A DNA stretch of 49,497 nt from Candidatus Avelusimicrobium excrementipullorum (GTDB lineage: Bacteria; Elusimicrobiota; Elusimicrobia; Elusimicrobiales; Elusimicrobiaceae). The translations under genes were made by a program, and so were the position numbers. Below, piece after piece: positions 2,150-2,426 of this stretch (its first letter is position 1; every line of letters begins with the position of its first letter). The notes below the pieces were generated by a model, which was not told where the DNA came from, did no database searches, and saw only the letters and a program-made list of their open reading frames with translations. The stretch is taken from positions 1 to 49,497 of the forward strand of contig DWVB01000096.1 in the NCBI GenBank assembly GCA_019120455.1. The letters are read 5' to 3'.

Positions 2150-2426
2150 ATTTACGGAAAGGAGTGCATACAAACACATAAGCCTTCAACGAGGCTTATT
2201 TACAATTTGAATCTGTTTTTGGAACCGTATAAAGCATACGGTGCGCTGTCGGGATACCGGCGGCATAATTGAGGTCCAAAAACAATCGTTTTAGGCACAA
2301 AGCAAACGGACTAATTACCCGTTTGTTTTGTGCCGAGTGTTTCCTGTCATCAGCAGATGGCAGGAAACCACGGCTGTTATTTTTGGGTTACCTCAATTAG
2401 CTCAGATATAACGGCCGTTTTTATTT
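2150..2426 (+). ncRNA. Candidate structured RNA with a long-range pseudoknot
   Basis: No gene fits this 370-bp gap, but it folds densely on the plus strand. Three simple hairpins come first: 2178-2199 (7 bp), 2224-2242 (7 bp) and 2245-2264 (8 bp with two G-U pairs). Two stronger ones follow: 2294-2334 (16 bp, one G-U) and 2340-2367 (11 bp, one U-G). A last 10-bp hairpin, 2371-2380 with 2408-2417, is followed by TTTTTATTT and looks like a terminator. Its loop contains ACCTCAATT (2390-2398), fully complementary to AATTGAGGT (2267-2275), and TTTTGG (2381-2386), complementary to CCAAAA (2276-2281). This gives an H-type pseudoknot with two hairpins inside. A TATAAT box at 2137-2142 predicts a start near 2150. 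It lacks the conserved sequences of RNase P RNA, tmRNA ends, 6S or SRP RNA. It could be a free RNA or a leader of the next gene. The fold is read by eye. Confidence 0.6.

Follow-up and report, generated by a model that had tools for sequence, protein, structure and literature searches.

Attenuator-like leader RNAs of Elusimicrobiota with a hypervariable long-range helix and a palindromic loop

Leaders of the trp type, T-box leaders and terminator riboswitches combine an antiterminator and a terminator that have a strand in common with a U-tract and a same-strand gene just downstream. An RNA encoded at about positions 2150–2426 of a 49,497-nucleotide (nt) stretch of Candidatus Avelusimicrobium excrementipullorum DNA (phylum Elusimicrobiota; contig DWVB01000096.1; the whole stretch is referred to as the window) is one copy of a leader family with this organization, and is most probably, on the evidence of sequence comparison, the 5′ leader of a TRL-like lipoprotein gene and a transcription attenuator. 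The strand common to antiterminator and terminator, the U-tract and the nearby same-strand gene are as in general attenuators, whereas here the antiterminator continues a hypervariable 10-bp helix, which gives a pseudoknot in the other state, and no T-box match was obtained in Rfam.

In Clostridioides difficile, pilA1 is controlled by a c-di-GMP-II (cyclic diguanylate) riboswitch with a terminator (PMC6366702). The Elusimicrobiota leaders resemble this system in placing a terminator leader with mutually exclusive folds ahead of type IV pilin genes, but they are ∼220–270 nt long, lack an Rfam match, contain the hypervariable long-range helix, number up to ∼45 per genome and include DNA methylases in their regulon. 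The dimerization initiation site (DIS) of HIV-1 is a palindromic kissing loop (PMC7357161); the leaders likewise present a self-complementary 6-nt loop, commonly within a 9-nt loop of 2+6+1 nt, but are bacterial regulatory RNAs with many palindromes, and their dimerization is only predicted. The ornate RNAs ROOL, GOLLD and OLE are homo-oligomeric (PMC12286853) and are, like the present family, large structured bacterial RNAs with self-association (predicted only for the leaders), whereas the Elusimicrobiota RNA is a shorter cis leader without a match to any of the three in Rfam above the gathering threshold. Leaders of the terminator/antiterminator kind are thus already known, although this family is not listed in Rfam; new, to our knowledge, are its matched hypervariable zipper/pseudoknot, its palindromic loop and the size of its regulon.

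A search of the whole window against Rfam 15 at the gathering threshold returned tRNAs only, and nothing credible was found for this RNA even at E ≤ 10. The family copies likewise had no match at the gathering threshold, including to riboswitches such as c-di-GMP-I/II (GEMM), and no paper on such an RNA in Elusimicrobiota was found in the literature. An earlier note on this DNA had proposed a structured RNA able to form a pseudoknot, ending in a terminator and distinct from the RNase P, tmRNA, 6S and SRP (signal recognition particle) RNAs, naming in advance an Rfam match as grounds for abandoning the proposal and covariation of the long-range helix as its test; the proposal holds, with no match found and strong covariation. 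Its sequence and coordinates were correct on re-checking, as was its count of six hairpins (P1, P3, P4, P5, P6 and P7/P8, the last followed by the U-tract). The parts of the window copy are as follows.

2137–2142, + strand: TATAAT, probable −10 box (a TATAAT-like hexamer is enriched upstream across copies)
2178–2199, + strand: hairpin P1, 8-bp stem in the fold of the window, optional across the family
2213–2223, + strand: P2 5′ strand CUGUUUUUGGA, near-invariant (97% mean pairwise identity)
2224–2242, + strand: hairpin P3 (double changes at 7/7 pairs)
2245–2264, + strand: hairpin P4 (double changes at 7/7 pairs)
2266–2275, + strand: PK5, 5′ strand of the hypervariable 10-bp long-range helix (complementarity, covariation)
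2275–2288, + strand: P2′/antiterminator strand UCCAAAAACAAUCG, partner of either the P2 5′ strand or the terminator 5′ strand
2294–2334, + strand: hairpin P5, 16-bp stem (double changes at 16/16 pairs)
2312–2317, + strand: UAAUUA, self-complementary P5 loop, candidate kissing-dimer site (loops are palindromic across copies)
2337–2369, + strand: hairpin P6, stem 2339–2368 plus an outer G–C pair (2337–2369) and a bulged U (double changes at 13/13 pairs)
2370–2418, + strand: intrinsic terminator hairpin, P7 (2370–2380/2408–2418) and P8 (2382–2390/2398–2406) (fold, covariation)
2390–2399, + strand: PK3, 3′ strand of the hypervariable helix, in the apical loop of the terminator hairpin (complementarity, covariation)
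2418–2426, + strand: terminator U-tract (from sequence)
2427–2476, + strand: spacer to the gene, with a probable Shine–Dalgarno sequence AAAGAGAG at 2464–2471
2477–2764, + strand: regulated gene (by inference), a 95-residue TRL-like lipoprotein (Pfam PF13146 TRL, 30.7 bits, cut-off 25)

The minimum free energy of region 2160–2426 is −116 kcal/mol, against −63.7 ± 4.7 in 200 shuffles (z = −11.15). The TATAAT-like hexamer occurs upstream of 84% of copies compared with 51% of shuffles, and a transcript start near 2150 would be expected in the window.

Comparison of the copies identifies three mutually exclusive helices with common strands. In P2, CUGUUUUUGGA is matched to UCCAAAAACAG; in the main-family antiterminator, AACAGYCG at the end of P2′ is matched to CGGCUGUU, the 5′ strand of the terminator; and in P7, CGGCUGUU pairs instead with the terminator 3′ strand, which the U-tract follows. 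The hypervariable 10-bp helix directly extends the antiterminator. A short subfamily has GAUUAUUUGUUGGA for P2 and GCGAUUA for the terminator start, compared with CUGUUUUUGGA and CGGCUGUU in the main family, and in both subfamilies the 3′ end of P2′ (UAAUCGC in the short, AACAGYCG in the main) is complementary both to P2 and to the terminator start. Antiterminator pairs co-change between the subfamilies at three positions (C–G to U–A, G–C to A–U), and the P2′–terminator duplex is more stable with its own partner than when swapped between subfamilies (−18.7 versus −11.3 kcal/mol in the short, −15.9 versus −9.4 kcal/mol in the main). GCCG followed by at least five T in the next seven positions marks the terminator end in 196 of 218 copies. 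Three hallmarks of an attenuator leader, an intrinsic terminator between promoter and gene, a conserved antiterminator and a same-strand gene, are present.

Folding of a transcript lacking the terminator 3′ strand gives the antiterminator as the minimum-free-energy structure in 193 of 198 main and 41 of 42 short copies (15 main and 16 short copies, in which the helix could not be placed beside P2′, were left out), whereas the full leader adopts the terminator fold in 188 of 198 and 31 of 42, respectively. The window copy behaves similarly, with antiterminator −101.9 versus P2 −98.3 when the terminator 3′ strand is missing and P2 plus terminator −114.5 versus antiterminator −101.9 in the full leader; because nested folding cannot score P2 and the pseudoknot jointly, it may exaggerate how far the antiterminator is preferred at the early stage. 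Besides this limit, several points weigh against the attenuator interpretation. At position 2285 the window carries an A instead of the G found in most copies, which leaves a C–A mismatch in P2 and likewise in the antiterminator; the junction nucleotides are only moderately conserved; some spacers, including that of the window, lack a clear Shine–Dalgarno hairpin or P2′ repeat; and no trigger of the switch was found.

The earlier note had also read a second pairing, CCAAAA (2276–2281) with TTTTGG (2381–2386), in the same fold as the long-range helix. The positions are correct, but the pairing is incompatible with P2 and P8, both of which are conserved; a single fold containing all three was rejected, and the pairing was reassigned to the alternative antiterminator state. 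The long-range helix itself (AATTGAGGT/ACCTCAATT) ranks first among the region's inverted repeats; it spans 10 bp (2266–2275/2390–2399) rather than the nine first given; its second strand does lie, as claimed, in the loop of the terminal hairpin.

Covariation was computed over 81 pairs in 97 distinct relatives. Paired cells amount to 93.5%, compared with 74.3% in shuffled controls and about 40–43% when the partner is slid by one column, a control that preserves relatedness; double-change cells number 1441 against 394 in shuffled controls, counts that kinship among the sequences inflates. Changes on both sides occur at 68 of the 81 pairs, and the outer pair of P6, for example, is GC in 62 and AU in 32 relatives. 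Changes in the P2 partner strand are mostly of the wobble type. Of 207 copies, 199 retain eight or more Watson–Crick pairs in the long-range helix, against ∼0.5% in a control that redistributes the strands among copies. The helix nevertheless comprises 162 different sequences, with a mean pairwise identity of ∼38%, the lowest of all helices (48–63% for P3–P6). Leaders that are ∼86–88% identical elsewhere often show just 25–40% identity here, which is near-random, indicating that both strands, ∼115 nt apart, are replaced together. In one leader (L083:250–467) the two strands are mismatched to each other and each fits another leader type (the 3′ strand as in L082), resembling a recombinant or an assembly chimera.

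The 10-bp helix would zip up the antiterminator as soon as its second strand has been transcribed; were P2 to persist instead, these 10 bp would engage the terminator loop in a pseudoknot. Persistence of the antiterminator would allow read-through by RNA polymerase, and transcription would stop where P2 and the terminator win. Which state would form first in the cell we infer from modelled folds.

Homologues were found by DNA search in 29 of 61 genomes, all of the window's own genus. The window genome itself holds two real copies, the second preceding a YrbL-like gene. A covariance model built from 43 copies (R1) matched 58 of the 61 genomes of the genus and 88 of 295 in the phylum; one 1.5 Mb genome (G064) gave 51 matches, ∼45 of them strong. 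A model (R2) of the shorter subfamily, which lacks hairpin P5, gave matches in 80 of the 295 phylum genomes and in 19 of the 90 genera. Some of them are main-type copies picked up by cross-match, and three families (f2, f7 and f16) contribute only a small number of R2 matches, most of them weak. A short-subfamily copy in a single-contig genome precedes a zinc-ribbon gene, and main-type leaders precede the same kind of gene in other species. When GTDB genomes were scanned for the pattern, all of the matches listed fell in records named for Elusimicrobiota or labelled `uncultured bacterium'. As far as searched, the family comprises hundreds of copies confined to Elusimicrobiota. Two divergent variants (L272:1577–1754 and L267:1988–2166, both − strand) carry their own P2/antiterminator/terminator sequence sets, indicating that more subfamilies exist.

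Five of the 218 distinct main-type copies reach contig ends; 209 have a same-strand open reading frame downstream, with a median distance of 42 nt from leader to start codon, and for four none was found. Pilin-like (type IV pilin) genes account for 116 of the downstream genes, and a prepilin methylation motif was present in all 34 of the pilin-like proteins sampled. The remainder include glycosyltransferases of families 2, 8 and 9, outer-membrane barrels, EcoRI-type and other DNA methylases, sulfatases and lipoproteins. One leader (L027:1303–1537, − strand) lies 46 nt ahead of a DISARM DrmD-like helicase, and others lie ahead of EcoRI-type methylases. The TRL-like assignment of the gene downstream in the window, already given in the earlier note, is borne out by the Pfam match.

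The spacers of many pilin copies suggest a second level of control. A hairpin of at least 9 bp masking the Shine–Dalgarno sequence occurs in 20.5% of pilin-copy spacers, compared with 0.5% of shuffled ones, and TCCAAA, part of the P2′ repeat, occurs in 46 of 186 main-type spacers where 2.4 are expected; a universal P2′ repeat was rejected, as this amounts to just ∼1/4 of the main-type spacers. The main-family P2 5′ strand pairs better with its own spacer (−12.1 kcal/mol) than with spacers of the other subfamily (−8.7 kcal/mol) or shuffled spacers (−7.1 kcal/mol), and the short-subfamily strand does so only slightly (−10.4 versus −9.5 and −8.7). The main-family pairing fits a second, translational gate: in many pilin copies the hairpin would mask the ribosome-binding site with a loop that repeats the P2′ sequence, and antitermination would release the P2 strand, which could then open this hairpin.

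Other spacer elements were observed. About 24 main-type spacers (e.g. L048, L012 and L075) contain an UUGAGCCCGA-like element that is complementary to GGCUCAA, the P8′ strand of the terminator; it never shares a spacer with CCAAAAACAG-type elements. In the window, TTTTAGGCA (2289–2297) is fully complementary to TGCCTAAAA (2426–2434), just past the terminator, possibly allowing a further pairing in the read-through mRNA; many Endomicrobia-type spacers begin with TTTTGCCTAACAAA. On the other side of the leader, the product of the gene ending at 2069 has a thioredoxin fold (TlpA/ResA-like) and probably a lipoprotein signal; this gene is followed by its own terminator-like repeat AAAATCCCCCGC...GGGGGATTTTT at ∼2078–2108 (locus 1581–2108).

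Of the copies, 66% have a 6-nt palindrome in the P5 loop (49% of distinct loops versus 8% of shuffled) and 94% a 4-nt palindrome (79% versus 40%). The palindromes are varied (UAAUUA, UCAUGA, UUAUAA, UUCGAA and UUGCAA), with several kinds inside one genome, and self-complementarity is maintained through sequence change, as in a DIS-like element. The commonest loop layout is 2+6+1 nt, which is also that of the HIV-1 DIS loop. Self-pairing between molecules, as kissing dimers, is the simplest explanation that these palindromes suggest. A DNA-level origin was rejected, the half-base offset of the palindrome from the stem centre appearing to suit RNA loops better. Since the short subfamily lacks P5 and keeps the switch, P5 pairing is not essential to switching.

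What might set the balance between terminator and antiterminator admits several answers. It is possible, though doubtful, that a small molecule such as a cyclic dinucleotide binds the P2–P3–P4 domain: the pilins, glycosyltransferases and lipoproteins resemble c-di-GMP regulons, most sampled genomes of the genus encode 3–4 GGDEF domains, and the pilA1 riboswitch with its terminator (PMC6366702) offers a precedent. However, there is no Rfam riboswitch match, the three-way junction has no block of invariant unpaired nucleotides (the invariant positions being mostly those with two partners), and restriction–modification and methylase genes would be unusual in a c-di-GMP regulon. The small window genome (G000) has four GGDEF-domain matches, on contigs C71, C46 and C21. 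A protein that throws the switch by binding the CUGUUUUUGGA strand or the P5/P6 domain, be it an RNA chaperone, a NusG paralogue or a dedicated antiterminator, is an equally tentative proposal. The ∼97% identity of the P2 5′ strand, with a partner drifting mostly by wobble, is as expected for a bound single strand, and CUGUUUUUGGA is common to dozens of leaders in one genome; yet part of this invariance can be explained without a protein, by the second pairing partners that P2′ has and by the repeat in the spacers, and no candidate protein was identified. Somewhat less probable still is that the leaders sense each other, with terminated and nascent leaders dimerizing through the palindromic P5 loop and so shifting the balance. 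The excess of palindromes, of many kinds and several per genome, and the DIS-like loop layout speak for this, but a 6-bp A–U kissing helix may be weak and the predicted switch of the short subfamily dispenses with P5.

Explanations that dispense with attenuation fare worse. The strong terminator and probable promoter would suit a free small RNA followed by a separately promoted gene, and the earlier note had left the choice between a free RNA and a cis-acting leader undecided. The leader with terminator is clearly favoured by the same-strand gene (209 of 213 copies) and the co-varying antiterminator; the tight spacing of the downstream genes (98% on the same strand) and the conservation of the antiterminator make a free RNA improbable, and it was rejected on gene context. 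The many copies and the palindromic P5 could also recall a dispersed mobile element or a DNA-level recombination site, but base changes preserve the helices throughout and the element keeps a fixed place between promoter and gene, so that this origin is very improbable; a mobile or viral element was rejected, as the exact pattern occurs in none of the 2.9 million viral contigs of IMG/VR.

For the attenuator leader, two further suggestions are weaker: that self-complementary P5 loops would let leaders dimerize, and that the private long-range helix of each copy would keep paired leaders from cross-pairing. Joined together, these would describe a network in which dozens of paralogous leaders per genome dimerize via palindromic loops while cross-pairing is barred by a hypervariable helix that doubles as the antiterminator zipper, coordinating surface, pilus and DNA-modification genes without a classical ligand; this remains a speculative and rather unlikely model, drawn from sequence patterns.

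The family would constitute a large class of regulatory RNAs in a phylum that is poorly cultured, with more than 200 distinct main-type copies examined in detail and a short subfamily in 19 genera. Variable surface and DNA-modification genes make up the regulon that it marks. Its almost always matched hypervariable strands and varied palindromic loops are rare natural evidence for specificity by pairing and for RNA dimerization in bacterial leaders, both of which these leaders make directly testable.
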